The position numbers and the translations under genes are program-made. From a virus, in IMG/VR virus record IMGVR_UViG_3300034953_000035, positions 1 to 24,616 of that record: a stretch of 24,616 bases of DNA, one strand, 5' to 3'. Below, piece by piece: positions 1 through 13,837 of this stretch. How positions within the stretch are numbered: position 1 is the first letter of the stretch; every line of letters starts with the position of its first letter. The notes beneath the pieces are model-generated. The model was not told where the DNA came from. It saw nothing but the letters and a program-made list of their open reading frames with translations, and did not search any database.

Positions 1-230
1 GGCACATAGACTGGCTCTGGCTCTGGCTCGGGAAAGGTGTGATCATCCAGATGGACAAGTCCCATAGAAGTAAGGAATTCTTCTATCGAATCAAGGAGAA
101 CCATATCGCCCTCACGTCCCGCTGGGATGTGAACCCGAGCTGGGTTGAGTTCGCTAACTGAGTAGCGGGTATGATTTGAGGTGACGTAATCACCAGATTT
201 ATCTTCTCTAGCTATGTAATAATTTTGCAT
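1..230 (-). CDS. Unknown protein, truncated at the left window edge
   Basis: An ATG at 230 opens a frame that runs off the window after 76 codons. It starts MQNYYIAREDKSGDY and ends in a PEPEPEP stretch encoded by CTGGCT-type repeats near positions 10-32. The start overlaps the last 23 bases of the upstream methyltransferase gene, and an AGGAA lies about 8 bases upstream, one of the few visible ribosome binding sites here. I see no recognisable domain. The position, next to the leucine-rich-repeat and methyltransferase genes and where T7 has tail fibre and late genes, only suggests a late or virion-related role. The remainder lies outside the window. Confidence 0.6.
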   Translation of the reverse strand, partial: MQNYYIAREDKSGDYVTSNHTRYSVSELNPARVHIPAGREGDMVLLDSIEEFLTSMGLVHLDDHTFPEPEPEPVYV

Positions 231-714
231 ATCTTGTTCCTGTTATAAGTTTGTGTTCGTGTTCTGCTAGATACCTAGCAACGGATGGGTAGTGAGCATC
301 GTGGACAAGCAGACAACCCCCGACACGGAGCATTGAGAGTGCTTTTTCGCAATCGTTCTTGGTATGTTCGTAGTCGTGATTCGCATCTACTACAACAAGG
401 TCGCAGAGTGGGATGTCGGACGGGTCAAACGTCATTGAATCCTCGGTAAGTTGAGTGATGTTCTCAAACTTGTGGAACTTGTAAAAGTGTCCAAGGTCTT
501 TACCCGCTGCAATCTCAAGCTGTTCATCTTCCCCGCCATTAGGCAGGTCAAGAGTCCACACGTGCTTCGCTACTTCTGCGAGGCAAGATGTAGTGTAACC
601 GTGGTAAGTTCCAAACTCAAAGACATTGCCTGTCTCCCGAAATTCAACAGCTTGCGACGCAACGAAATCCCGCTCGATTTGTGTCCCTGTATTATGATGA
701 TTTGCAACTACCAT
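208..714 (-). CDS. Small class I SAM-dependent methyltransferase-like protein
   Basis: The 168-residue product looks like a compact Rossmann-type methyltransferase of the Methyltransf_24 kind. Motif I is around residues 31-41 (VFEFGTYHGYTT), an acidic residue at the end of the next strand is in WTLDLP, and a strand with VVVDANHDYEHT near residues 106-118 is followed by the GG turn and HDAH, as is usual in this family. The substrate cannot be read; relatives often act on sugars or small molecules. It starts three bases after the leucine-rich-repeat gene stops, so the two are probably co-translated, and the next gene overlaps its end. No clear ribosome binding site is visible. A role in modifying a host surface glycan or a virion component is inference from position. 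Confidence 0.7.
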   Translation of the reverse strand: MVVANHHNTGTQIERDFVASQAVEFRETGNVFEFGTYHGYTTSCLAEVAKHVWTLDLPNGGEDEQLEIAAGKDLGHFYKFHKFENITQLTEDSMTFDPSDIPLCDLVVVDANHDYEHTKNDCEKALSMLRVGGCLLVHDAHYPSVARYLAEHEHKLITGTRYAKLLHS

Positions 715-717
715 ATT

Positions 718-1872
718 TTAAAAGTGGAATGATGCATTAATCCAGATGTAGCCCTTGTCGAGAGTAGGATTAGCTGTCAGCCACGTTTCAAACGCTGCGG
801 AGCCTGGGTTGCCGCTGTAAAAAATCTGCCCTGTCGTTGTGGTCGCTAGCGAACCTGCGAACGCAATCAACGCTGCCTCAGATAGATTGTTATCGGCAAC
901 GGTTGTCCCGTTCCAGTAGGTGTATGAAAAAGCCACCCCTGTCGCCAAGATAGATGTTAGCTGGCCGCCCCGCACATATAGTTGTTCAAGTGCTGTCATA
1001 CCGCTTATATCCAGACTAGTTATGTTTGTGTTAGCAGCAAGTATGTAAGTCAGTAGCGTCGAGCTGCTTAAATCCAAAATAGTTATCGGGTTGCCATCGC
1101 AAGACAGTTGAGTAAGTGCTGTCAGACCGCTCACATCCAGATTGGTGATGTCATTGGAAGAAATAGATAACCCTTGCAGTGCTGTCAGTCCACTTACATC
1201 CAGACTAGTGAGCTGGTTGCTACCACAGAGCAGGCTGGTCAGCGCTGTCAGTCCACTTACATCCAGACTAGTGAGCTGGTTGTTGGCGACCCCTAGACGG
1301 GTCAGTGCTGCCAAACCACTTACATCCACATTGGTAACATCTCCATGAGCTGCAAAAGCTAATTGTGTCAGATTACCTGCTCTGGGGGCGGCACTGGTTA
1401 CTGCACCATCTGAACCCACATAATCAGTAGGCCAGATGCTCATTGTGTATGGCGCACCATTATTGTGTGGGATGCTTTGTAAGGGACAATATACCCCAGC
1501 CCCTCTTGCTTTATACACAGGCGTTCCACCATCTATGGAGTAGCAAATACCTGTGGCTCCATCAGTTCCATCGTGATATGCGCTGTGGGTTTTAGTTGTT
1601 GTAGCCACCGATACCATTGTTGCGTAACCCGTTGGGTTAGCTTGGGGCAAGTCACTAATAACACGGGATGCATTACCACCCTCGAAGCGTCGAATCGAAC
1701 GGTCAGAAACAAGGCTGAATAACTGCCCGACTTTCACCGAACCAGCGTCAATGATTACCTGCATCGCTGATGCGTCAGCTACGGCGATGGTTGCGGTTGC
1801 GATAGTGCCAGAGCCAACGGCTCCCCCACCCGAACCGCTGCTACCTGAGCGTTTTACGTTTGGATAAATCAT
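718..1872 (-). CDS. Leucine-rich-repeat protein at the tail-fibre position
   Basis: A 384-residue protein. The N-terminus is Gly/Ser-rich (residues 9-22), followed by a beta-rich region to about residue 165. Then come about seven leucine-rich repeats of 21 residues with the pattern LTxLxxxxNxLTxLDVSGLTA, and a C-terminal cap ending in aromatic residues. Such repeats are common in secreted or surface adhesion proteins of aquatic bacteria and make curved protein-binding faces. In T7 the tail fibre gene follows gp16; here this gene sits there, two bases after a small beta-rich gene. I infer an adsorption or receptor-binding role, but there is no visible gp17-like attachment domain. It could instead be a decoration protein. 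Two repeat units are identical over 39 bases at the DNA level. Confidence 0.75.
   Translation of the reverse strand: MIYPNVKRSGSSGSGGGAVGSGTIATATIAVADASAMQVIIDAGSVKVGQLFSLVSDRSIRRFEGGNASRVISDLPQANPTGYATMVSVATTTKTHSAYHDGTDGATGICYSIDGGTPVYKARGAGVYCPLQSIPHNNGAPYTMSIWPTDYVGSDGAVTSAAPRAGNLTQLAFAAHGDVTNVDVSGLAALTRLGVANNQLTSLDVSGLTALTSLLCGSNQLTSLDVSGLTALQGLSISSNDITNLDVSGLTALTQLSCDGNPITILDLSSSTLLTYILAANTNITSLDISGMTALEQLYVRGGQLTSILATGVAFSYTYWNGTTVADNNLSEAALIAFAGSLATTTTGQIFYSGNPGSAAFETWLTANPTLDKGYIWINASFHF
1181..1282 (-). repeat. 63-base tandem repeat inside the leucine-rich-repeat gene
   Basis: Positions 1181-1219 and 1244-1282 are identical over 39 bases and offset by exactly 63 bases, that is one 21-residue repeat. 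Flanking units, from about 1000 to 1330, are more diverged copies. The identity includes synonymous sites, which suggests recent duplication or gene conversion between units. Confidence 0.9.
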
Positions 1873-1874
1873 AA

Positions 1875-2129
1875 TTAGCGAAGAAGAGAGATGACAACCT
1901 CAGCTGTTGCAGTCGATGTGACGCGGAGCTTAGTTGCAGATGTGGAGAAGATGAGCGAACCGCTACCATCAATAGATGCGCCAGCTAGCTGTATATACTT
2001 GGTGCGCCCGAAGCGCTCAAGGGTGGTGGTACCTGTAGACTCAACTACAAGCTCACCGTTTTTACCGAGCCATTCGACCTCTGTAGGTGTGTTGGCTGGG
2101 ATTTGTTGGTTAATACCGAATCTTGGCAT
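1875..2129 (-). CDS. Small beta-rich protein of unknown function, possibly virion-associated
   Basis: An 84-residue product starting MPRFGINQQIPANTPTEVEW. It is rich in Thr, Ser and Val with alternating hydrophobic residues and no charged helices, which suggests a small beta-sandwich or beta-barrel. There is no signal peptide or membrane segment. It is the first gene after the hairpin that follows the gp16-like gene, and it stops two bases before the leucine-rich-repeat gene, so the two are probably translated together. I do not recognise the family. A tail or capsid accessory protein working with the leucine-rich-repeat protein is a reasonable inference. Confidence 0.65.
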   Translation of the reverse strand: MPRFGINQQIPANTPTEVEWLGKNGELVVESTGTTTLERFGRTKYIQLAGASIDGSGSLIFSTSATKLRVTSTATAEVVISLLR

Positions 2130-2156: not shown

Positions 2157-2184
2157 AGCCACCCCCCAAGAACGGGGGGTGGCT
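2157..2184 (-). terminator. Strong hairpin after the gp16-like gene
   Basis: A perfect 11-base-pair inverted repeat (2157-2167 with 2174-2184) with a 6-base loop lies 16 bases beyond the stop of the gp16-like gene. On the minus strand it is followed by CTTTAA, a weak U-tract, so it may be a terminator, a partial terminator or an mRNA-stabilising/processing stem. The stem is C/G-rich and very stable. Confidence 0.7.
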
Positions 2185-2199
2185 ATAATTTACTGCGGG

Positions 2200-5100
2200 T
2201 TAGTAGAGTGCTACGAATGCGGAGACCTGTTCAGCGGATTTACCCTGACGGATCAGTCCTTTACTTATCTTGTGCTGCTTGCGGGCTTTCCCGAACTCAG
2301 GGTATTCCTTGTAGGTTTCTTCGAGTGCTGCCTTGCGGTAGCGGTTCATCACCCTGTTAATCTCAGCGACACGTGGGCTAGCTATTCCCTCTTCAGGGAT
2401 ACCCTGTGCGTCGAGACGGTCATAGTAGTTCGACTTGATGAGCTTAGCTAGTGCCTGCTTCATTGTCTTACCGCCGAGCTTAGCTTCACCTGAACGAGCG
2501 ATGTAGAAGTCGTAGGCTGAGCGTCCGTCCTCATCTCGATATTCGAGCATGTCAAATTGCCCACCGTCTACCAAGCTGGAAGGCTTAGTGAACTTGTGGC
2601 CTAGCTCAGCTAGCTCAGACATCACTGGGTCATTCTTCTCACGAGACATCAGGATCGGAGACGCGGCGTTCCCTGTGAGATAACGACGAGCATCCACCTT
2701 TTCACCGAGCACGTTACGAGTAGGTTCTAGTTTGTGGGTAGCTCCGACCTTCTTCAGTAGGAACTCACCCATACTATGAGCTTCCCGCATGTGGTCTTCG
2801 CCTGTGATCATACCAGCTGACTGAGTGATCAAGTTGGGGATGTAGCTAGCTAGCTGTGACTTTCCAATATGCTCAAGTTTGCCCGTATCATCTTGGTTCA
2901 GTGCGTCGAGTAGACGTTGAACACCTGTGAGGTAGGACTTGTTGAACACATTCTGTGACAGTGCTGTCTGCATTCCTTCAATCACTGCGCCGAGTGGTTC
3001 AGTCATACGCTCATCCGAACGGTTGAACGTCTCGTGAACGTCAGCTACCGAGCCGAACAACATAGCGAACGGATCGAAGCGCTGATAGGATGTGTAGGTG
3101 TCTCCCTGCTTAATGCTGTATGCTTGCCAGCCTGTAGCCTCCAAGATTTTACGCTCGTCGGGGTCAGTAGGCCCGCCACCTGTGATGATGCCGTTACCGA
3201 CTAGGCCGAGAGCTGAGAACATCATAGATGCGCCCATCACTTGACGACCACGAGCTTGCGCTCTGATCATAGGGTCAGCGTGCTCAATCTGTTCGATGAA
3301 CTTCTTGTGCATACCGAGGAAGTTGCCGTATTTAGTTGGGAGCACTCGTTCCCCAGCGAAGTTGAGTAGGTTCATTGGTGTGCGAACAAACGGCATGACG
3401 AGCTGTAGTGTCGGGTGTTGGCTCACAGCTGTCTGTAGCTTCCGTCCGAGTGTTCCCTCAGCTAGCGGATTGGTGAAGGTTGTCTCACGTCCGAAATCCT
3501 GGGCTTGATTGGTTCGCTTGAGTAGATTCGGCAAGGCTCCCGCTTTCGCGTTATACTTTGTCTTCACTTCGTCAGCGATGAACTTTGAACGAGCTGGGCC
3601 TTTCATCCCTGCGGCATCTGCTTGCATGATCGCATCCTTGGTGACTGATGCCTCCGAGAACTTGCGACCACCTTCAGTAACTGCGCTGTCCATGTTGACC
3701 GTAACGTATTCAGCTAGGTCGTTTCCTTTGAGTCCCTTAGCTAGACCATCCTCAACGAACATCGTTTTAGCGTGTGCGCGGTAGTTGATCTGCTTTAGAA
3801 ACTCATCGGTTGCCATGAGTGAGCGTGTAGGAAGATTCACCAACTTACCGAATCCGTTTAGGATGTGGCCTTTGGTTGTCTTCTCTCCGACTCCGAATGC
3901 TTTAGCTGAGATAGCTCTATCTTGCTGCGAACCTGAGATGACATCTGTGACCTTGCTGGTAGCATCAAGAATGTTATCGTCAGACAGGAATGACTTCCAG
4001 CCAAACTTAGCCGACTCACTGATCTGCGAGAAGATTTGAAAGCCTTGACGCACGTAAGCACGAGAAGCCTTCAAGTCTCCGTTCACAGCTGCACCTACCA
4101 TACCTTCGAGAGGGCGATAGAACGTGTTTATAGTGGAAGACATCAAGTTGACTGCAAATGTCTTTGGCCCAGACAGGATCGAGTTCATCCATAGCTCATT
4201 ATGAGCGCGGAATAACTGACCGTTGCTGCCTAGCTGCGCCTTCAGGAGCTTCGTTTTAGCTACACCATCCGTTGCCTCTCCGAACTGCTTGAGGGCTTTC
4301 TTGAGGTAGTCCTGTCCGCCTGCCTTTTCAAGCAGCTCGTCCATATCAAACGCCTTCATTTCGGCTTCCTTGAGGTAGCGGGTTGAGCGGAGTGCTCTAC
4401 CCTGTGCTGAGCGTTGTCCACCAATGATACGGTGAAGGTCGCCAGCCATCTTCATCTGCTCCTGCGCTCGGATCATATCCTCTGGGTTGCCTGTCTTGTT
4501 AGCTAGATCAATCGCCTTCGTCATCGAGTCATACTGCTTTGGGAGTTGGTCAGCAGCCATGATAGCTATGAGCATTCCTTCGTCAGTCTTCAGCGTGCCA
4601 GAGCGGTAAGCCTTGAGCGTTTCATCGACATCCAAGTCATCCAAGCCTAGTGCAGCTTTGTATGCCTTAGCGCGGACGAATGTTTCCTCCATAGAGTGTT
4701 TCGTATGGATGTCCTTGTTGGCGATAGCTGCGTCACGTTTATAACCCAACCACTCCTTCATGTCATCCGTGCTGTTGATATACTCAGGGTTGAGTAGACC
4801 ATGCTCCTCACCAGCTGCCCGCTGAGCATCTGCCTTCAGCTCGGCGTTGCCCTTCCGAGCGATCTCAGCTAGCTCAGCCTCACTCTTGACCATTGCGGCG
4901 GGAGCTTTGGCTAAATCTTTGTAGCCGTCTTCGACCACATCAACAAGCTCATCAGGTGTCATACCTTCAGCGATGCCTTTGCGTCCACGCTTTAGTCCAC
5001 GGAATGCTGCCATAGTGAGACCTTCAGCAGCGACACCGAGACCGAGACCTTCAAGGACGTTCTTTAGTCGCCCCTCAATTTCTCCATCGTTGTCGTCAGC

Positions 5101-5571
5101 TGCCAGATATTCTGTGACAGGGTTAGCTAACTCAGGGATATCCTGAATCATATTAGACAAACGCTCTTCTTGGTGGTCGAAGACTGTGAAGTCTGTGATT
5201 GCACCAGCGATAGCGCCTTTAGCTACTTTGCCTACCTTACCTGCTCTAGCTAGCCAGCCGATCTTACCGACCTGTCCGACTACAGGGATGAACCCTGTAG
5301 CGAACTGACTAACACCCTGCACCATTTTACCAGCTGTGGTTTCGGAAGTGCCAAGGAAGTCTTGCTCCCAGTCGGGCAGTGAGTCTTGAGCTACCCAATC
5401 GAGTAGGTCATAGACTTCATGTGCTGCGCCTTCGACACCTCTGAAGGGTGCGGCGGCTATATCTTTGGTATAGTCCCAGAAGTCGGGATCACCCTGCTCA
5501 ATCGGTTGCTGCTGATTGATTGGGGGGAGCACGTTGGTAGGCTGGGAGCCTTCAAGTTTCGTTATCTGCAT
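2200..5571 (-). CDS. Internal virion protein, T7 gp16-like (ejection protein) lacking a transglycosylase domain
   Basis: About 1123 residues, slightly shorter than T7 gp16 (1318). By gene order it is the large inner-core protein that is ejected and spans the host envelope during infection. Hydrophobic Gly/Ala-rich helices occur around residues 70-125 (VVGQVGKIGWLARAGKVGKV) and 170-190, and the rest is long, mostly helical and charged. The N-terminal lytic transglycosylase domain of T7 gp16 is not visible: the protein begins with a Pro/Gln-rich tail and goes straight into the hydrophobic region. I chose the ATG at 5571, which overlaps the gp15-like gene by 20 bases and has AGAAGAAG upstream; a TTG at 5607 would add 12 residues. 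Confidence 0.85.
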   Translation of the reverse strand: MQITKLEGSQPTNVLPPINQQQPIEQGDPDFWDYTKDIAAAPFRGVEGAAHEVYDLLDWVAQDSLPDWEQDFLGTSETTAGKMVQGVSQFATGFIPVVGQVGKIGWLARAGKVGKVAKGAIAGAITDFTVFDHQEERLSNMIQDIPELANPVTEYLAADDNDGEIEGRLKNVLEGLGLGVAAEGLTMAAFRGLKRGRKGIAEGMTPDELVDVVEDGYKDLAKAPAAMVKSEAELAEIARKGNAELKADAQRAAGEEHGLLNPEYINSTDDMKEWLGYKRDAAIANKDIHTKHSMEETFVRAKAYKAALGLDDLDVDETLKAYRSGTLKTDEGMLIAIMAADQLPKQYDSMTKAIDLANKTGNPEDMIRAQEQMKMAGDLHRIIGGQRSAQGRALRSTRYLKEAEMKAFDMDELLEKAGGQDYLKKALKQFGEATDGVAKTKLLKAQLGSNGQLFRAHNELWMNSILSGPKTFAVNLMSSTINTFYRPLEGMVGAAVNGDLKASRAYVRQGFQIFSQISESAKFGWKSFLSDDNILDATSKVTDVISGSQQDRAISAKAFGVGEKTTKGHILNGFGKLVNLPTRSLMATDEFLKQINYRAHAKTMFVEDGLAKGLKGNDLAEYVTVNMDSAVTEGGRKFSEASVTKDAIMQADAAGMKGPARSKFIADEVKTKYNAKAGALPNLLKRTNQAQDFGRETTFTNPLAEGTLGRKLQTAVSQHPTLQLVMPFVRTPMNLLNFAGERVLPTKYGNFLGMHKKFIEQIEHADPMIRAQARGRQVMGASMMFSALGLVGNGIITGGGPTDPDERKILEATGWQAYSIKQGDTYTSYQRFDPFAMLFGSVADVHETFNRSDERMTEPLGAVIEGMQTALSQNVFNKSYLTGVQRLLDALNQDDTGKLEHIGKSQLASYIPNLITQSAGMITGEDHMREAHSMGEFLLKKVGATHKLEPTRNVLGEKVDARRYLTGNAASPILMSREKNDPVMSELAELGHKFTKPSSLVDGGQFDMLEYRDEDGRSAYDFYIARSGEAKLGGKTMKQALAKLIKSNYYDRLDAQGIPEEGIASPRVAEINRVMNRYRKAALEETYKEYPEFGKARKQHKISKGLIRQGKSAEQVSAFVALY

Positions 5572-7819
5572 TAGGTTGTGACTTCTTCTGTGGTTTGTAG
5601 ATTTCAAGGAGGTAGGGATTCTCTGTATAGAGCTTCAGCTGAGCGTTAAATGCCTCGTCTTCGTTTTCAAATACCTCGTGATTGACTTTGTGGATTCGTT
5701 CGTAGAACTCAGGTTTGTAGGTTCCGTCTGCGTTGCGCGTGGAGTTAAGCTCAACGAGGCTCAGGAAGATTGGACTAATGCGGGGGTCAACTTGGCTGGG
5801 GTTAAATGTTACACCCTCCTCAGTCGTTCCGCTAGCTAGCTCAGAATCTAAGTAGCCTACGAGTCCCTTCATTTCGTAATAAGCTACGTCAGCTGTTGGG
5901 TGAATCGTCTCAGGGGATACCTGCGTCGCCTCACCTAGTCTCTGCAAGACCTCCCGCGCTTTCGTTGGGGTCTGAAGGACATCTGATACAACAATTCTGT
6001 TGCCACCTGAGTTGATGCGGCTCGCGCCATCCTCATCATTAGCTGCATCCATCGCTGGAATAGTTTTACGCTTTGATGCGGTGGAGATTGCGGTGTATCG
6101 CGCCTGAACAGCCTCTGCCTCCGCCTTCACAGTCGCTACACGTGTCTGCTCCGTAGAGATTAAACCAGCGTAGAACTGCTCTGTGTGCTCTTTCGTGGTG
6201 TCAGCTCTGATCTTGTTCATCTTGATCGGATCAAGTTTCTCGCCACGCGCCTTAGCGTCGATAGCTTCAACTTGGTATGCCTTGACGATATCAGCTTGAA
6301 GACCTTCAGCGAACTGTGAGCCTAAGCCGAATAGTTCTTCGGTTTTCCCCTCAGCAGACAAATCCTGTAGGATCGTGAGTGCTTCAGGTGGTGCGCCGAT
6401 AGAGCCTACTGGGGAGATGATTGTTTGAACGGTGTCACCCTGCGTCACATTGCGTTTCTTTAGGACAGCACTCATTAAGTTATCGGGGGTGAGTGCTTGT
6501 GTGTGGCCCACAATAGATAGCTTGACGTTCTTACGGTCTTTAAACCAGACACGCTTTTGATAAGATAGCTCGTCGTGTGCCATAATCTCCTGATCAGTCT
6601 TGTCCGCGAAGACACCCTCCATAGTTGTGAGTGCTTCTTCGCTGTCCAAGTTAGCCGCATCTCTGCGTAGGTTGTCATCCAGCTCGCGGTTCACTGTAGA
6701 TTCGATAGCTCGGAACTGGGTGGAGGTGATATCACCTGACTTCATTAGCTCACGCTGCTCTTCGACGTAGCTAGCTAGCTCGCCATCTTCGCGTTGATCG
6801 AGGCTCTTCTGAGCTAGGAACTCGCCAGCCATTGCCTGCCCTGAATCTTTCTCCTGTGCTCGTTGCTGTGCCGCTTTGAGTGGGGCGACTGCTTGAGCTT
6901 GAGCTAGCCGACCTTCGAGGATGTTGAACGATGATGCCACCGTGCCGACCTTTCCGAACGTGCCGCCATCTCCGAGCTTATGTTCCTTCAGTGTTTCCAT
7001 TAGCGTATCCGCTTCGTCAAACTGATCAGTGGCGATGAGGTTCTTAATCATCGACTCAGCTACAGGCAGGAAGTTAGCTGTCACATCCTTGTTCGGGTGT
7101 GTCTGACTAAAGACCGTCATGGTGTCGGTGAACTGACGCTTAGCTTCACCCAATGCTTCAGGCGTGTGAGCCGTGGCGATACTGTTGAGCGACGTGTTGA
7201 GCTGGTTGTCCATCAACCGATCACCTTCTTTCTCCTGATAGGAGAGGATTGCGCGGTTGCCCGCTGAGCGGAAGTTATTCTCAGCGCGGTCAGCTGCATC
7301 CAGTAAGCCTCTGTAGTAGGGGCTGGAGGGGTCAACAGGTGCTCCCTCTAGCTTCGCCTTCCGTATCTCTTCAACGATCGTGTCGATAGCATCAGGCCCG
7401 CCTTGGGGAACTTCCTTAATCCGTCCGAACATCTCAGACTCAAAGGCTTCACCTTCTTCTGCACCCTTTAGGAAGTGCATAGTCTCTTGGAACTTCGGCA
7501 GCTGGGCGCGTGAGATTGTGCCGTCCTCAACAAAGCGCTTCATGTCACCATTGATGATGTCCATGCGCTGAGCTGAGTCCATGCGTTCAAACTCGACACG
7601 CGCCATGTCAGGAGCTTCTGCTATCTTGTCTTGTTGATGCTTATCGTAGACTTGTAGGATCGTCCCACTCATACGAGCGAGCGCTCTGGCTGTGCCTGCT
7701 GTTCCTGAGTTGTAGATAGCTCCCTCAGCTCGTGTTGTGATACGGTTGCGTGAGGTGACTCCGTGTGCTAGCTGTGGTGTTGCACCAACTAGGGGGTTTT
7801 TAATTTCGCGTCTTGGCAT
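5552..7819 (-). CDS. Internal virion protein, T7 gp15-like
   Basis: The product has 755 residues, close to T7 gp15 (747), and lies between the gp14-like and gp16-like genes. It is predicted to form part of the inner core and the ejected periplasmic tube. The sequence is highly helical and charged with many Gln, Glu and Ala residues, without signal peptide or transmembrane segment. I assign it by length, composition and position, as gp15 proteins diverge strongly. The ATG at 7819 starts 13 bases after the gp14-like stop; the leader has no clear ribosome binding site. Its C-terminus overlaps the start of the gp16-like gene. Confidence 0.85.
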   Translation of the reverse strand: MPRREIKNPLVGATPQLAHGVTSRNRITTRAEGAIYNSGTAGTARALARMSGTILQVYDKHQQDKIAEAPDMARVEFERMDSAQRMDIINGDMKRFVEDGTISRAQLPKFQETMHFLKGAEEGEAFESEMFGRIKEVPQGGPDAIDTIVEEIRKAKLEGAPVDPSSPYYRGLLDAADRAENNFRSAGNRAILSYQEKEGDRLMDNQLNTSLNSIATAHTPEALGEAKRQFTDTMTVFSQTHPNKDVTANFLPVAESMIKNLIATDQFDEADTLMETLKEHKLGDGGTFGKVGTVASSFNILEGRLAQAQAVAPLKAAQQRAQEKDSGQAMAGEFLAQKSLDQREDGELASYVEEQRELMKSGDITSTQFRAIESTVNRELDDNLRRDAANLDSEEALTTMEGVFADKTDQEIMAHDELSYQKRVWFKDRKNVKLSIVGHTQALTPDNLMSAVLKKRNVTQGDTVQTIISPVGSIGAPPEALTILQDLSAEGKTEELFGLGSQFAEGLQADIVKAYQVEAIDAKARGEKLDPIKMNKIRADTTKEHTEQFYAGLISTEQTRVATVKAEAEAVQARYTAISTASKRKTIPAMDAANDEDGASRINSGGNRIVVSDVLQTPTKAREVLQRLGEATQVSPETIHPTADVAYYEMKGLVGYLDSELASGTTEEGVTFNPSQVDPRISPIFLSLVELNSTRNADGTYKPEFYERIHKVNHEVFENEDEAFNAQLKLYTENPYLLEIYKPQKKSQPNADNET

Positions 7820-7832
7820 TTATTTTAGGGGT

Positions 7833-8372
7833 TTATGTTTCACGCGCTGCGACACGATCCATACCGCTACCATAAGCAGAGGCGGAGGATGCACCGATAT
7901 TAGCTGCGGCAGCTAGATAGCTAGGCCCAGCTACGGGAGTGCTGTAGGCTTCGAGGTTTTGAGTGAGTTGGATGTCTGTGCCTTGGAGCGCTAACTCCGT
8001 GCCGACATCCTTGAATGATTGTTGTTTCTGAGTGGCGGACTTGTAGCGTCCGTTCTCTGCGTCATAGCTCTGTAGGAGTGAGTCAACAGAAGCTCCTGAG
8101 ACATTACCCTCAGCTGCTGCTGCTGCGGCTCCCGCCTTGGCTCGTTCGGCTGCACTATCCGAGCGCTGCTCTTCAGCTGCGGAAGCTCGTTTCTCCTGTC
8201 CCTGTTTGATTCGTAGGGAGTTCTGTTCGTGCTGTGCGCCAATGATGGCATTCTTGCCCATACGCTCCTGAGCTTTGACCTTAGCGTCGGCAGCTTTCTG
8301 CGCTTCCATAGTGGATGCGATTGTGCCGACAGCTGACATAATGCCCATCGTGATTGAGATTGGTTCACACAT
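7833..8372 (-). CDS. Internal virion protein, T7 gp14-like
   Basis: A 179-residue protein (T7 gp14 has 196). It starts MCEPISITMGIMSAVGT, with the MC start and short hydrophobic N-terminal helix also present in T7 gp14. A long Ala/Gln/Glu-rich coiled segment follows, then GASVDSLL, which corresponds to the GSSMDR region of gp14, and a C-terminal GASSASAYGSG that closely resembles the GSSAASAYASG of gp14. In T7 this ejection protein forms the pore in the outer membrane. The start overlaps the end of the gp13-like gene by 8 bases, so translation is likely coupled. Confidence 0.88.
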   Translation of the reverse strand: MCEPISITMGIMSAVGTIASTMEAQKAADAKVKAQERMGKNAIIGAQHEQNSLRIKQGQEKRASAAEEQRSDSAAERAKAGAAAAAAEGNVSGASVDSLLQSYDAENGRYKSATQKQQSFKDVGTELALQGTDIQLTQNLEAYSTPVAGPSYLAAAANIGASSASAYGSGMDRVAARET

Positions 8373-8871
8373 CTTTGTAGTAGGGGTTGTCTTTAATGAG
8401 TAATAGAAAGTTCATGCCGTGCCTCGTGTAGGCGTTGGCGAGGGTGAAGCCCAGACGTTGAAGCCAAGCTACTGCTATGGTATTCTCGTCGTGGACGTAG
8501 TTATGCACGTAGGCATATTGGGGGTTATTTCGGAGCATCTGCTCAACGACCCAGTAGCTAGACTTCGCAAATATGTAGCTAGCGTCTTCAATGAGTGTCG
8601 TTGTTCCAACCATCCACATCATCCCAGCACGCTCGGAGTATCCAGCAGGCCCGACACCGAATAAACCTTCGGGCGAGCCTGCTACTTCGATTGTGTAGGA
8701 TTGGTGGATATCCCGTAGACCTTCAAACAGTCCTGCGAATTGGGACTTTCTCCCATCGTGCGTGAGTTCCTTCAGGTCAGCTGCGCGTAGGCGGCTACCG
8801 ACTGAGACTACATCACAGAGGCGCATATTGCGTATCAGTGCGTTATCGGAGAACTGTTTGTTTATTGTCAT
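8365..8871 (-). CDS. T7 gp13-like protein with a GNAT acetyltransferase-like fold
   Basis: 168 residues starting MTINKQFSDNALIRN, which resembles the MTIRPT start of T7 gp13. The C-terminal part (HNYV-x-x-ENT ... LQRLGFTLA ... YTRHG) aligns well with WNYV-x-x-GNT ... LKTIGAVFH ... YTRDG of T7 gp13 and looks like the last strands of a GNAT fold. In T7 gp13 is needed for virion assembly of internal proteins; catalytic activity is not shown by the sequence. I chose the ATG at 8871, whose ATGA overlaps the stop of the gp12-like gene, over an ATG at 8907 that would add 12 residues, because it fits both coupling and the T7 homologue. Confidence 0.88.
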   Translation of the reverse strand: MTINKQFSDNALIRNMRLCDVVSVGSRLRAADLKELTHDGRKSQFAGLFEGLRDIHQSYTIEVAGSPEGLFGVGPAGYSERAGMMWMVGTTTLIEDASYIFAKSSYWVVEQMLRNNPQYAYVHNYVHDENTIAVAWLQRLGFTLANAYTRHGMNFLLLIKDNPYYKDV

Positions 8872-11609
8872 AGGGTTGTGTTGGTTTTGGTATAGCGTCC
8901 CTCCCATGCTAAGCTGAGCCAGCTGGATGGATACGGGGTGTTGTTTTTTAGGGTTACAGTTACTTTGTCTGAACGTCCGTAGACTGGGAATCGATACTCA
9001 CCATCGTTAGGTGTAGCTGGGATGGTAGGTAAGACACCAAGGTCTGTCTCCTTCATGGTGTAGGTGTAGGGGTCTCGATACTTCTGAGAGACCACCACTG
9101 AGAACGGGAAGCAGTCATTGACCGTCAGCCGACCATACAGCACTTGAAAGTTACCACCAGTAACAGCGACCTGACCACCCCCACCTGTCGGCTTCATCAC
9201 TGTGGGGCGTGTTAGCTCGATACAGGTGGCGAAGGTTAGACCGATCCACAGCTCTTGCCCTGTGAGATCACCTGACACGCCATAGCTAGCTGAGCCATCA
9301 CCGTCGAGAGTAGCTAGGAGTGTTCCCGCGTTTGCTCCACGAGTGCAGATAGCTAGCTCAGCTCCACTTTCAATATCCGTAGGGAGCGTGAATGTGGTGA
9401 TGTCCGTGCCGCCGTCATAACTCAACGTTGCGTCGGCGTCTGTCACGCGATGATCAAGTAGCGTTGGGAAGTCCACGCCTTCTGCCGAGTTGAACTGACC
9501 TACGGCGGGGTTCCACCGCTCAATGTGCGTCACTCCTCCTCGTCTGATTAGGAAGTAGACAAGCGAATCAATGACATAGCTATGAAGCACCAGCCCACCA
9601 AGTGTTAGCTTACTGAACGATGACTGAACGCGCTCGCCATTCTTATCAACGAAGCGGTAGACAAAGCAACCGTCCCTTTCATCAGTCGTGTGGATGAGGA
9701 GCATATCCTCAGACGGCACGCCTGTAATCAGGTAGGGTTCTTTCGTAATATAGCGAGGAACATGCGCTGAGATGTCGTATGTGCGAAGCTTCAGTGTGTT
9801 CTTATCCACCGAGAACTGTTTGAGTCCAACGGAGTCACCACGAGGGAAACAGAAGAACGTATCAGCATTCAACGCGATAGGCTTACAGCTAGAGCTGAAC
9901 TCCGTGCGGGTGGACTGCGACAGTGAGACCTTATCGAAGGTGAACCCCTCCGATAAATCTAAGATATACTGAGCCTTCTCAGCAAACAATAGGATGTTTC
10001 CCTCATGCAGGGAAACGTGTTCAATGTTTGAGACAGCTTCATCTGTGATTTCTAGCTCAATAGGTTGTGTATCGAGCACGTTGGTCACTGTAGTCCTGAA
10101 CATATTGTAAGGCTGAGAGGTCTCTGAATATACGAAGGTGTCACCAACGAATAGACCTAAGCGCTCCTGTGTGTAGCTCAGTGCTGATACACCTTGACCC
10201 TCGATCTTCGGGAAGGCGTTTGTCTCATCGTCACCAACAAGGCGATCCGCCCAAGGAGCGCGTTTGAACTCAAAGCTGCCCCCAAGGGAGAGAAGGACGT
10301 GCGGCATTGTTGTTGTGTTAAACGCTGTTATCGTGTTCGGCGCGATTGTTTCAACCCATGCGCCTAGACCAAATTCCGCTCCGTTATTGGTGCTAAATCT
10401 TAGATAGTAGTCATCTGCGGATTCTGTGGAGTCCCCGATCACCTTAACTGAATAACCATCGTAGCAGTTTGTGGGTAGCCCATCTAGCGACTCGACTGAC
10501 TTCTGAACTAGCCCGATGTAGCTATCTCCTGCACCGTCACTCACCGAAGTCTCAAAGTAAGTCCCATCCACACGGCTGATTCTGATTAGGTTCTCACTCT
10601 TCGTGAATGTGTATTCAGATAAGTTTCCGCTAGCAGCAAGAGCATTCTTGAGTTTGGTTGCTATATACCTAGTTGAGATTTGATTTGCCTCAGTTTTACT
10701 AGCTGAGTGGGTGATAGTGACTGGGGCGATAGCCTCGGGGGGACTATCAGGGCTTGAGATCCTCGTAGTGTTGTTGGTTGACTTAACGATCTGTGAGTAA
10801 CCCTGCTGCTGTTGTTTAATTGATGCGGATACAGAGAATGATTCAATCGAGTTATTAGCTAAGCTAGCTATTACTGTGGGTGCGCCATTAGTCTGCATTG
10901 TCGTATTCCAAACTCCATCCTGAACAAGCGTGTAGGTGCGTGTCTTCCAGTTAGGGCGGTGATAGCTTGATGTGTTACTCTGAACAACGGCAATAATAGT
11001 TGGGAGCACGGTATATCCGCTACCTCCTGAAACTAGGCTGATATTCAAATCACAGCTGCTCGTACCAACGTTCGACCATTGAGCGCTGATGACTGCTTTA
11101 GCTGCAAAGTCTCCTGAGTTTAGCGTCACAGAGTAGTCAACCCCGTAGGCTCCTTGCTTGATGAAGAGTAAGACATCAGCAGGTGCGTCACCCGAAGCCT
11201 CTACACCTTGAGCTATGCCCTTCTCTGTGTTAGCTATGAATGTCGTATCTGACACTGTGAGCGCTTTGAATGCCCCTATGGGTGTCCCCGATGTAGTTAG
11301 GTAGTCTTTCCCATCAGGGAAGCTGACAGGAAACTCAGCCCCTGTCTCGGAGTTAAAGACTTGTAAGTTTCCACCCTGAATGAGAACAGAATAGCGTTCG
11401 TCGCTATCACGGTTGATGTCGTGGATGAACGTATCGGGAGTGAAATCCCCAGTCAGCGACCCACGGTAGTCCGTGCCATTACGTGAGGTGCTTCCTGAGA
11501 TTATGGATGGGATCACATTAACCTGAGCTTCTACTTGTGCGGGGAACCGTAAAGCTTCTGCTTGCTGTGTGACTCCACCAACAAGGTTCGGGATGTTTAC
11601 TTCGATCAT
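8868..11609 (-). CDS. Tail tubular protein B (nozzle), T7 gp12-like
   Basis: A 913-residue protein that starts MIEVNIPNLVGGVTQQAEAL, with the GG(I/V)-QQ and RFPAQ-x-x-x-QVN pattern typical of gp12 nozzle proteins. These form the hexameric lower part of the short tail. It is longer than T7 gp12 (794 residues); the extra length seems to be in the beta-rich middle region, about residues 170-420, with Ser/Thr/Asn-rich strands. It starts three bases after the gp11-like stop and ends in an ATGA overlap with the gp13-like gene. No ribosome binding site is evident at the start, which suggests coupling with gp11. Confidence 0.93.
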   Translation of the reverse strand: MIEVNIPNLVGGVTQQAEALRFPAQVEAQVNVIPSIISGSTSRNGTDYRGSLTGDFTPDTFIHDINRDSDERYSVLIQGGNLQVFNSETGAEFPVSFPDGKDYLTTSGTPIGAFKALTVSDTTFIANTEKGIAQGVEASGDAPADVLLFIKQGAYGVDYSVTLNSGDFAAKAVISAQWSNVGTSSCDLNISLVSGGSGYTVLPTIIAVVQSNTSSYHRPNWKTRTYTLVQDGVWNTTMQTNGAPTVIASLANNSIESFSVSASIKQQQQGYSQIVKSTNNTTRISSPDSPPEAIAPVTITHSASKTEANQISTRYIATKLKNALAASGNLSEYTFTKSENLIRISRVDGTYFETSVSDGAGDSYIGLVQKSVESLDGLPTNCYDGYSVKVIGDSTESADDYYLRFSTNNGAEFGLGAWVETIAPNTITAFNTTTMPHVLLSLGGSFEFKRAPWADRLVGDDETNAFPKIEGQGVSALSYTQERLGLFVGDTFVYSETSQPYNMFRTTVTNVLDTQPIELEITDEAVSNIEHVSLHEGNILLFAEKAQYILDLSEGFTFDKVSLSQSTRTEFSSSCKPIALNADTFFCFPRGDSVGLKQFSVDKNTLKLRTYDISAHVPRYITKEPYLITGVPSEDMLLIHTTDERDGCFVYRFVDKNGERVQSSFSKLTLGGLVLHSYVIDSLVYFLIRRGGVTHIERWNPAVGQFNSAEGVDFPTLLDHRVTDADATLSYDGGTDITTFTLPTDIESGAELAICTRGANAGTLLATLDGDGSASYGVSGDLTGQELWIGLTFATCIELTRPTVMKPTGGGGQVAVTGGNFQVLYGRLTVNDCFPFSVVVSQKYRDPYTYTMKETDLGVLPTIPATPNDGEYRFPVYGRSDKVTVTLKNNTPYPSSWLSLAWEGRYTKTNTTL

Positions 11610-11612
11610 AGT

Positions 11613-12191
11613 TTAATTATATCTCCGTGCGTTCTTCTGCTCAGCTGAGTTAGCTAGCGTGTAGCAGTTTTGGTTAAGCTCCTCCTTCATCAGGTCGGCG
11701 CGTGCTTCCACCTCGTCAGCTTTTGAGAACTGCCAGAGTATTTCAGCGTTCTCCCAGTTAGCTACGAGAGATCGCCCAGCTCGGACAAAGATGTAGCGGC
11801 GGGCTTCTTCGGGTAGATCATCGAAGTCGAGACGCACTGTGAGTAGGACGTTGACAGGTTCGGTGAATGTGGTGGTGCGGTTCTTTCGGTCGAACAGGAT
11901 AGACCCACGTTTGATGGGGTCGGTTTCAGTCTCTTCTCCTTTGTGAACGTTGATAGTATCGGTTGGGCAAAGGATCGTGCCGTCGCCTTCGAGAGCTAGC
12001 TCACGCTGCTCGACATTGAAGCCCCAACCTTGGGCTTGGACAGCTAGATCAATGTTATCTAGGAGATCAACAGCCGCTTGGAGGTCGGGGGGTAGAAAGC
12101 CATCTAGGATAGCCTGAGAAATTGGTGCGTCTCCTTTCATGGAGAGCATTTGATTGACCGCAGATAAGCGGGTAGTTGCTGTGACTGGCAT
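11613..12191 (-). CDS. Tail tubular protein A (adaptor), T7 gp11-like
   Basis: 192 residues (T7 gp11 has 196). The protein has the gp11 pattern: an N-terminal helix with AVNQMLSMKGDAPI, then AVDLLDNIDLAVQAQGWGFN, and a C-terminal region with RRYIFVRAGRSL and ALMKEEL-like helices. Gp11 forms a dodecameric ring joining the portal to the nozzle. The gene is the first after the capsid terminator, so its expression probably depends on read-through. The leader just before the ATG is a run of T and C from the terminator itself, with no ribosome binding site. Confidence 0.92.
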   Translation of the reverse strand: MPVTATTRLSAVNQMLSMKGDAPISQAILDGFLPPDLQAAVDLLDNIDLAVQAQGWGFNVEQRELALEGDGTILCPTDTINVHKGEETETDPIKRGSILFDRKNRTTTFTEPVNVLLTVRLDFDDLPEEARRYIFVRAGRSLVANWENAEILWQFSKADEVEARADLMKEELNQNCYTLANSAEQKNARRYN

Positions 12192-12203
12192 AAGAATAAA
12201 AAG

Positions 12204-12240
12204 AAAAAAACCCCCTGCCAGTGGTTAAACTAACAGGGGG
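12204..12240 (-). terminator. Rho-independent terminator after the capsid gene
   Basis: On the minus strand CCCCCTG (12234-12240) pairs with CAGGGGG (12211-12217) and is followed at once by seven T residues (12204-12210) and more T-rich sequence. This matches the position of the T-phi terminator after gene 10 in T7. It lies between the capsid and gp11-like genes and would reduce tail-gene expression relative to capsid. Confidence 0.93.
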
Positions 12241-12261
12241 TAAACAATACATGAACAAATA

Positions 12262-12322
12262 GGAAAAAGATGCGGTGTGAGGGAGACCCCAGCTTAAAGC
12301 CGAGACCTCCCCTGTTCACACC
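12262..12322 (-). terminator. Second, larger hairpin just after the capsid gene
   Basis: GGTGTGA (12274-12280) pairs with TCACACC (12316-12322) and GGGAG (12281-12285) with CTCCC (12307-12311), with a bulge and an inner GCTTTAAGC palindrome. On the minus strand it is followed by GCATCTTTTT. It stands 30 bases after the capsid stop and upstream of the main terminator. It may be a tandem terminator or a processing/stability stem. Confidence 0.65.
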
Positions 12323-12351
12323 ACATGAAACAAAACAACCTAGCTAGGAGC

Positions 12352-13329
12352 TTAGACTCCAGCAGCCGAGGACAATTCAACAGCACACTCTGGGCGGAGG
12401 ATACCGTGACCGACAGCAGTTTTAGCTACCATCAGCGTGCCTTGGTGGGCAACCGAGTATTCATCTTCGAGTCCGATGCCGAGCATACGAACTGTTCCCA
12501 TTGCGTCCTTTTGGAAGACCGTGCCAATGTGCTTGGAGAAGTCACCGTCATAGGTGTTGTTCTCGCCAGCCTTAGCGGTGATAACTGTCTTAGGAACGTT
12601 GTTGGACTTGAGGATTTTAACACCCGCAACGTGTGGGATGCGATTCTCAAGGTAGAGCTGTGCGCCACCGAGATCAGCGTTCTGCAAGTCCTTGTTCCGA
12701 GCTAGCAACGAGTATTGCTTAGGGCGGAGAACGATACAGCGATCATTCTCAGGGATGTCTTTCTCATCCAAGAGGATTGTTGCTTCGTAGATCGCTTCCG
12801 CAATAGACTCACCAGTATCACCGAGATTGGTAACGTCAGACTGATCGAGGACAGAGCCACCGTTCGCTTTAGGATCGGATGGGATGTTTGCGGTTGCACG
12901 AGCAGCGAGGGCGATGACCTGAAGGACATTGCGATCAAGCTCCATAGCTAGCGCTTGGCCTAGCTGTTCAGCATACTCACCACGGATTTCGTAGTTGTTC
13001 TTCAACTCGTCGATAGACGCAATGAAGACAGGAGCTACGAGGAGATCATCAAGAGAGATGATACGCTCACCGTGAGCGATGGTGTTGAGGAGACCGTTGG
13101 AAGGATCGAGGATGTCCTTACCTGCAACGTGGTATTTGGCAGTTGCCGAACCCATGATAGGGAAACCAGCGGACTTACCGTTCTTGAGATTACGGACTTT
13201 GTGGAGGCCGTCTGTAACGACGAAGCGCTTGTAGGAAGCAAGAATCTCTTTAGCGAGAATCTTGTAGAACAGTGCGTCAGTTGCACCAGCTTTGTTATCC
13301 TGACCGATACGGGATGGGGTAGTATTCAT
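12352..13329 (-). CDS. Major capsid protein, T7 gp10A-like
   Basis: 325 residues (T7 gp10A has 345). The strongest markers are NLKNGKSAGFPIMG near the N-terminus, which matches the RNGKSGQFPVLG of T7, and IRGEYAEQLGQALAMELD, which matches VRSEYTSQLGESLAMAAD. It has the HK97-type capsid fold of this family and forms the icosahedral head with scaffold help. A frameshift product such as T7 gp10B is not obvious, since the terminator hairpins begin 30 bases after the stop. The gene has its own long, structured leader and is flanked by terminators, as expected for the most highly expressed late gene. No ribosome binding site is visible just upstream of the ATG. Confidence 0.96.
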   Translation of the reverse strand: MNTTPSRIGQDNKAGATDALFYKILAKEILASYKRFVVTDGLHKVRNLKNGKSAGFPIMGSATAKYHVAGKDILDPSNGLLNTIAHGERIISLDDLLVAPVFIASIDELKNNYEIRGEYAEQLGQALAMELDRNVLQVIALAARATANIPSDPKANGGSVLDQSDVTNLGDTGESIAEAIYEATILLDEKDIPENDRCIVLRPKQYSLLARNKDLQNADLGGAQLYLENRIPHVAGVKILKSNNVPKTVITAKAGENNTYDGDFSKHIGTVFQKDAMGTVRMLGIGLEDEYSVAHQGTLMVAKTAVGHGILRPECAVELSSAAGV

Positions 13330-13353
13330 TTAGGTCTTTGAGAGGGGGGGTAT

Positions 13354-13393
13354 GATACACGGATATGTATCGTGAGGCTTCCCCAACGGGGAA
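13354..13393 (-). promoter_or_regulatory. Two hairpins in the capsid mRNA leader
   Basis: Stem 1 pairs GATACA (13354-13359) with TGTATC (13366-13371). Stem 2 pairs TTCCCC (13379-13384) with GGGGAA (13388-13393) around a 3-base loop. Both would lie in the 5' leader of the capsid mRNA, 24 to 64 bases before the ATG, where T7 gene 10 also has structured leader elements. They could protect the mRNA or help ribosome access, as no Shine-Dalgarno sequence is seen. Confidence 0.55.
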
Positions 13394-13531
13394 ACTCTTA
13401 GGGTTGGGTGGGGTTTACTTTTAGCTAGCTAGCTAACCTCGGATGCCCAGAACCTAGCCGCAGCTAGTGGGTGAGTTTAGAAAGGTTACTTTAAGTAAGT
13501 CTTGAAAGTGTGAGGGTATTATATTATTTGC

Positions 13532-13550
13532 GTCCTGCCTCAAGTATCGC
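13532..13550 (-). promoter_or_regulatory. Repeated motif, copy 2: candidate promoter for the capsid gene
   Basis: Minus strand GCGATACTTGAGGCAGGAC. It shares GATACTTG-x-G-x-CAGGAC with copy 1. Fourteen bases beyond TTGAGG comes TATAAT, and just after it TAATAC-CC-TCAC, which resembles the first part of a T7 promoter with one base missing. It may be a host sigma70-type promoter or a phage RNA polymerase promoter. It lies directly after the CCA of the tRNA-like gene and about 200 bases before the capsid ATG. Confidence 0.5.
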
Positions 13551-13554
13551 ACAG

Positions 13555-13654
13555 TGGGGAGAGAGGTTGGATTTGAACCAACGCAGCTACATGCACATAG
13601 CTACCACCTTCGTTTTAACAGCAACAACACCCTTTCGGTGTGGCTAGCTCTCTC
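13555..13654 (-). tRNA. Class II tRNA-like gene with encoded CCA, anticodon uncertain
   Basis: A 7-base-pair acceptor stem (GAGAGAG at 13654-13648 with CTCTCTC at 13565-13559), a perfect 5-base-pair T arm with loop TTCAAAT (13566-13582), a discriminator C and an encoded CCA (13557-13555) are all present. A 7-base-pair long variable arm (GTAGCTA/TAGCTGC with one G-U) points to the Leu/Ser/Tyr class. ACACC/GGTGT forms a possible but unusual D arm whose loop lacks the GG pair. The anticodon arm is poor: GTT, TAA and others can be placed, none with a good 5-base-pair stem. It may be a diverged or decaying tRNA or a tRNA mimic. Length is 96 bases plus discriminator and CCA. Confidence 0.55.
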
Positions 13655-13777
13655 ATAAATCCAAGCGCGTTATACCGACTCTTACGGTTTTTCTTTTAGT
13701 AGACCAACGCGCCAGATGCGCCTACCAGTTGTCTCACAGTAAATTAGTCTGTGATTATGAGTATTTAGTTAAGCTGA

Positions 13778-13796
13778 GTCCTGTCACAAGTATCTC
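13778..13796 (-). promoter_or_regulatory. Repeated motif, copy 1: candidate promoter before the tRNA-like gene
   Basis: Minus strand GAGATACTTGTGACAGGAC, matching copy 2 at 13532-13550 in 15 of 19 positions. It begins directly after the U-tract of the terminator that follows the scaffold gene. Downstream is the A/T-rich AACTAAATACT. The place corresponds to where T7 starts a strong late transcript before gene 10. Confidence 0.45.
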
Positions 13797-13824
13797 AAAA
13801 GATTCCCCTCATATAGCGGAGGGG
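13797..13824 (-). terminator. Terminator after the scaffold gene
   Basis: CCCCTC (minus strand, 13824-13819) pairs with GAGGGG (13810-13805) around an 8-base loop and is followed by AATCTTTT. It begins 13 bases after the scaffold stop. The stem is G/C-rich; the T-tract is short, so termination may be partial. Confidence 0.7.
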
Positions 13825-13837
13825 GTCGCTTTGGTTC

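Follow-up and report, generated by a model that had tools for sequence, protein, structure and literature searches.

The closest described counterpart of the locus considered here is, by genomic position, the T7 tail fibre gp17 (PF03906). The tips of T7-like fibres are thought of as trimeric β structures. By sequence, it is Internalin-J (3bz5), a protein of leucine-rich repeats (LRRs) of 21 residues with a cysteine ladder; repeats of this length are common on bacterial surfaces. By organisation, it is a module of the Alteromonas phages A5, V22 and P24, which are morphologically distinct and otherwise dissimilar but have in common a tail fibre and its companion gene, a chaperone, and for which horizontal transfer has been inferred (PMC10579305).

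Here we describe an LRR protein encoded downstream of gp16 in an uncultured T7-like podovirus. We consider it probable that receptor binding by the tail fibre falls to this protein and that its module came from other phages in the form of a cassette. The window, which is the whole stretch of DNA analysed, is the complete IMG/VR record IMGVR_UViG_3300034953_000035, a 24,616-bp linear fragment. Its assignment to the T7-like podoviruses follows from profile matches to primase/helicase, DNA polymerase, portal, major capsid, gp11, gp12, gp13, gp14 and gp16. No near DNA match to the window was found among 50,697 phage records, and the nearest named relatives, which include Pelagibacter, Roseobacter, Rhizobium, Bordetella and Desulfovibrio phages, show ~24–46% protein identity. 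The same phage is present in a second sample (IMG/VR 3300034736), where locus L006 is 99.98% identical to window positions 7669–13230 over 5,562 bp. Between the capsid and scaffold-like genes, ~500 bp (13330–13837) are without a clear gene. On the minus strand, the genes run in the order gp16, p84, LRR gene, methyltransferase and a third gene cut by the left contig end, where the record stops (Table 1).

Table 1. Features of the LRR locus and its positional anchors
Feature	Position in window	Strand	Remarks
Third cassette gene, first 76 codons, cut by contig end	3..230	(-)	Homologues in L167 and L169
Methyltransferase (Methyltransf_24), 168 aa, second cassette gene	208..714	(-)	82–83% identical to L167/L169
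LRR protein, 384 aa	718..1872	(-)	ORF, LRR profiles, repeat units
Shared module (linker + LRR + cap)	718..1641	(-)	On unrelated N-termini in L167 and L169
LRR protein residues 1–77			Phage-specific N-terminus, Gly/Ser-rich
LRR protein residues 78–165			β linker domain
LRR protein residues 166–312			Seven LRRs, 21 residues each
LRR protein residues 313–384			C-terminal cap
p84, 84 aa, predicted all-β	1875..2129	(-)	Between gp16 and LRR gene; candidate adaptor
12-bp GC-rich hairpin, terminator- or processing-like	2157..2184	(-)	-26.4 kcal/mol, z -4.3
gp16-like internal virion (ejection) protein	2200..5607	(-)	phrog_6651; positional anchor
gp12-like nozzle (tail tubular protein B), 913 aa	8868..11609	(-)	PF25675

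The sequence-only reading had described a 384-residue protein with about seven 21-residue repeats, and the ORF, the LRR profiles, the mapping of the units and shuffling of the sequence all bear this out. Profile search matched the ORF to LRR_4 (8.3e-16) and LRR_8 (9.5e-8), with an LRR_4 score of 58.1 bits against a curated cut-off of 27. The units start at residues 166, 187, 208, 229, 250, 271 and 292, and six 63-nt repeat copies are present in the DNA of the gene. Over residues 166–310, identity at a lag of 21 residues is 58/124, far above the values for 5000 shuffles (mean 12.6, maximum 26), so that the periodicity is not due to chance. Three PHROGs of unassigned function also match the LRR region (phrog_7816, 1e-19; phrog_6688, 7e-8; phrog_21719, 3e-7), but these matches are confined to the repeats, extending slightly past them in one case. 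Patterns built from the full-length LRR protein and from gp16 retrieved no close relatives, and the best match of the LRR protein N-terminus among annotated phages had an E value of only 0.8.

Internalin-J is the best solved-structure match (1.7e-41), and the window protein resembles it in repeat length and consensus. This likeness, together with the frequency of such repeats on bacterial surfaces, raises the question of whether a host adhesin was captured by the phage, an origin that would still be compatible with a receptor-binding role. The likeness is, however, confined to the repeats: the window protein has neither the further internalin domains nor the cell-wall anchor and retains only two of the ladder cysteines, and its score of 72.8 bits against the Internalin J model NF033187, for which the whole-protein curated cut-off is 1700 bits, comes from the repeats only. 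Outside the repeats, the nearest sequences are phage genes, at the DNA level too, and a scan of bacterial genomes made with the methyltransferase gave two matches only, both distant. As the close relatives found for the non-repeat parts are all in phages and the resemblance to Internalin-J is that of a generic repeat, the earlier suggestion of borrowing from a host adhesin is not supported, and we regard such an origin as very unlikely.

Two other candidates were rejected. A ubiquitin ligase of the SlrP/SspH type was discarded because no ligase or catalytic domain follows the LRR, LRR families alone scoring above cut-off, and the PRK15370 score is 26 bits vs 1113. Of the Listeria phage LRR matches, the single annotated case inspected, an internalin-like gene, closes its record in the company of regulatory instead of tail genes and was left aside. 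Elsewhere, apparently unrelated viral contigs encode large LRR proteins, some in tandem pairs, either beginning MATFITSK... (L172, L177, L179–L181 and L183) or with lengths of 2200–3043 aa (L174–L176, L178 and L184); these are possible further LRR virion proteins. On one viral contig (L182:9584–14885), there is an array of four related LRR ORFs whose N-termini resemble one another (MK..ELKQLI.E.ILAE).

The location of the gene after those of the ejection proteins, also noted at the outset, is confirmed. Upstream of the LRR gene, profiles identify gp12 (PF25675), gp13 (phrog_308), gp14 (phrog_805) and gp16 (phrog_6651), with an ORF at the gp15 position, and only p84 intervenes between gp16 and the LRR gene. 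Of the 105 relative loci that continue past gp16, 95 have a gp17-type N-domain in the ORF that comes next, a count that is uncorrected for relatedness and was made with a local profile seeded by eight of the 95. The first gene after gp16 is annotated 'tail fiber' in HTVC041P, ProddE, CRP-171 and S30-C28. The window LRR gene thus has the genomic position of the T7 fibre gene, but its product is without the gp17 N-domain and has an LRR tip instead. Searched with PF03906 (Phage_T7_tail), the window yielded nothing at E ≤ 10, while the same search was positive in 9/15 viral records. The local N-domain profile built from the relatives was negative across the window, and a gp17 remnant in p84 or in the LRR protein N-terminus was rejected on this basis. 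No homologue of the LRR protein, p84 or the methyltransferase occurs in the relative loci. PF03906 is likewise absent from four T7-like relatives of 37–44 kb (L046, L139, L153 and L159; records G004–G007), in which small genes and terminase genes come after gp16 and no gp17 N-domain is found anywhere. The loss in the window is therefore not unique, and absence of the domain is tolerated.

This tolerance bears on the possibility that the LRR protein serves as a secondary fibre or as a branch, attached to or beside a gp17-type fibre, or some other anchor, that lies to the left of the contig end. The contig does end within the cassette, and relatives such as HTVC041P carry further adhesin-like genes, with a lectin domain, after the fibre. 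The gene with the gp17 N-domain nevertheless comes first after gp16 in the relatives, not behind other genes, and G004–G007 manage without one. We consider a secondary fibre unlikely, while according it some weight.

The p84 ORF, for which no homologue and no confident fold match were found, ends 2 nt ahead of the LRR start codon. The spacing of the LRR gene to its neighbours on both sides is 2–3 nt, from which we infer that the p84, LRR and methyltransferase genes are probably translated together. The hairpin is located between gp16 and p84; ProddE has an annotated terminator at the corresponding place, ahead of its tail fibre. Compared with four annotated relatives, the nozzle gp12 has an insertion of ~100 residues within residues ~168–300 (window 10710–11108); it contains a GGSGYT..PT motif and might affect fibre attachment.

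When part of the repeat region was used to search 2.9 million viral contigs, 28 loci were retrieved, in two of which, L169 (G001, 38,096 bp) and L167 (G002, 17,349 bp), the match reaches beyond the repeats. These contigs and the window have in common a cassette that comprises the LRR protein from residue ~78, the methyltransferase and the first ~75 residues of the third gene, in the same order in all three. Nothing else is common to the window and G001/G002, and the window nozzle has no match in either phage. Between the window and L167/L169, the linker–LRR–cap module is 57% identical over the aligned part; the number of repeats is seven in the window, seven in L167 and four in L169. The DNAs of L167 and L169 are 95–97% identical from L167:4856 to 6474. 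This interval opens shortly before the fibre-gene linker and closes at a Pro-Glu stretch in the third gene, at residue ~80. Outside both boundaries the proteins diverge, so the transferred piece begins within one gene and stops within another. Divergence is greater for the window copy, which has 74% DNA identity over ~800 bp. In G001, the GC content of the LRR gene is 50% vs 42% for the contig, which suggests that the gene is foreign there. Three more scans, one each for the methyltransferase, the third gene and the module, relied on short patterns that miss distant relatives and brought no additional copy, so that three copies of the cassette are known. The L167 and L169 phages have a few further genes in common with each other, suggesting a common or related host. 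As a separate observation, both of these phages encode proteins made up of short G-x-H-x repeats (GNHEGDH...; L167:9182–9598 and L201:10610–11365).

In L167, the module forms the C-terminal end of a 749-aa siphovirus tail-fibre protein. The residues that precede it are repeats matching tail-fibre PHROGs (to 2.6e-43), and the gene lies downstream of that for the tape-measure protein (1.8e-44). This fusion and this neighbour are the strongest functional evidence for the module as a fibre tip. In L169, the module is carried on a different N-terminus, downstream of the terminase, the only gene of this region recognised by profile; the genes before the LRR gene gave no profile match and should, by position, include those for portal and capsid. 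The alignment and the DNA boundary at L167:4856 show a phage-specific N-terminus joined to a conserved C-terminal tip, and the module recurs in phages without other similarity, the behaviour of an exchange module. As the window has the cassette in common with two unrelated phages (L167 and L169), we take the LRR protein to be, most likely, a swappable receptor-binding tip that moves between phages and was obtained from others. The proposal of a receptor-binding protein at the tail-fibre position is thus supported by the L167 fusion, the sharing of the cassette and the 95 of 105 loci; its host-adhesin component is not.

Some observations weigh against an LRR tip. The L169 LRR gene is not adjacent to any recognised tail gene, prediction for residues 1–81 is of low confidence, and p84 offers neither a homologue nor a confident fold. 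Moreover, LRRs, unlike T7 fibres, are not known to trimerise. The cassette might alternatively serve outside the virion, the LRR protein and the methyltransferase acting in or on the infected cell in surface modification, superinfection exclusion or anti-defence. LRR proteins can work inside or on cells, and the methyltransferase belongs to the cassette. The fusion of the L167 module to tail-fibre repeats points the other way; moreover, no signal peptide or sorting motif was seen on reading the LRR protein sequence, and profile search revealed no effector domain beyond the LRR. We judge a non-virion role to be very unlikely.

The methyltransferase has a sub-threshold likeness to the RMNT_CmcI and Methyltransf_3 O-methyltransferases, with no match among solved structures and none in annotated phages. 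Its target may be a surface sugar or else the fibre. The third gene overlaps it by 23 nt in the window, L167 and L169. The homologues of the third gene are 156 and 162 aa long and have phage-specific C-terminal halves, and this half resembles phrog_6034 and small tail-region genes of two Achromobacter phages; the product is possibly an assembly factor and may help folding. A bolder idea, which we think distinctly improbable, is that the cassette is a self-contained unit of recognition and exclusion. The LRR tip would bind a surface glycan and the methyltransferase would methylate the glycan or the tip in the course of infection, stopping progeny and related phages from binding to infected cells or debris. 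Such a unit would spread between phage families as one piece, its in-gene ends joining each phage's own anchor.

AlphaFold2, run on the three-sequence alignment, predicts most of the LRR with pLDDT of ~67–84 and a β-rich region at residues 84–149 (~53–65), with little confidence for residues 1–81. Fold matches of the predicted structure are LRR proteins, including InlJ and SspH1, and the best viral match is a 'PKD domain' protein of an uncultured phage. In LRRs, positions 6, 8, 10, 11 and 13 are exposed, lying on the concave sheet or next to it, and these are the most variable positions of the repeats. In the L167/L169 units, the exposed positions have amino-acid changes only (pN 0.30, pS 0), with a pN/pS of 0.25 elsewhere; in the window units, pN/pS is 1.41 at exposed positions and 0.61 elsewhere. 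All these comparisons draw on a small number of non-independent units. The tendency recurs, with similar ratios, in most other phage LRR genes, so that the signal is not special to the cassette. The variability of the exposed face is compatible with a binding surface without demonstrating selection. The variable codons in L167/L169 mostly retain the third base. A diversity-generating retroelement was considered and rejected, as G000–G002, all three of which may be fragments, contain no reverse transcriptase (PF00078) and no second LRR DNA copy as a template.

In the receptor-binding tip that we favour, the phage-specific N-terminus, probably with the help of p84, would fix the LRR protein to the tail. 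Residues 78–384, comprising linker, LRR and cap, would project outwards and bind a host surface molecule through the exposed concave face of the repeats. The module would have come from other phages in a cassette that also carried the methyltransferase and, of the third gene, possibly that of an assembly factor, the N-terminal half.

If true, an LRR tip would add to the fibres of T7-like phages a fold known elsewhere as a versatile binding scaffold, in the internalins and in the variable lymphocyte receptors of lampreys. The natural junctions in three phages mark where the recognition tip is exchanged, and the constant methyltransferase partner raises a direct and testable question. Our search of the open-licence literature found no described LRR tail-fibre tip. 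Like the Alteromonas module, the window cassette brings together a fibre and a companion gene in unrelated phages; it differs in its LRR tip, in the methyltransferase at its middle and in having both ends inside genes, and neither 'leucine' nor 'methyltransferase' occurs in the text describing that module (PMC10579305). Exchanged host-recognition modules are thus already known, and what is new here is an LRR tip with a methyltransferase as its partner.
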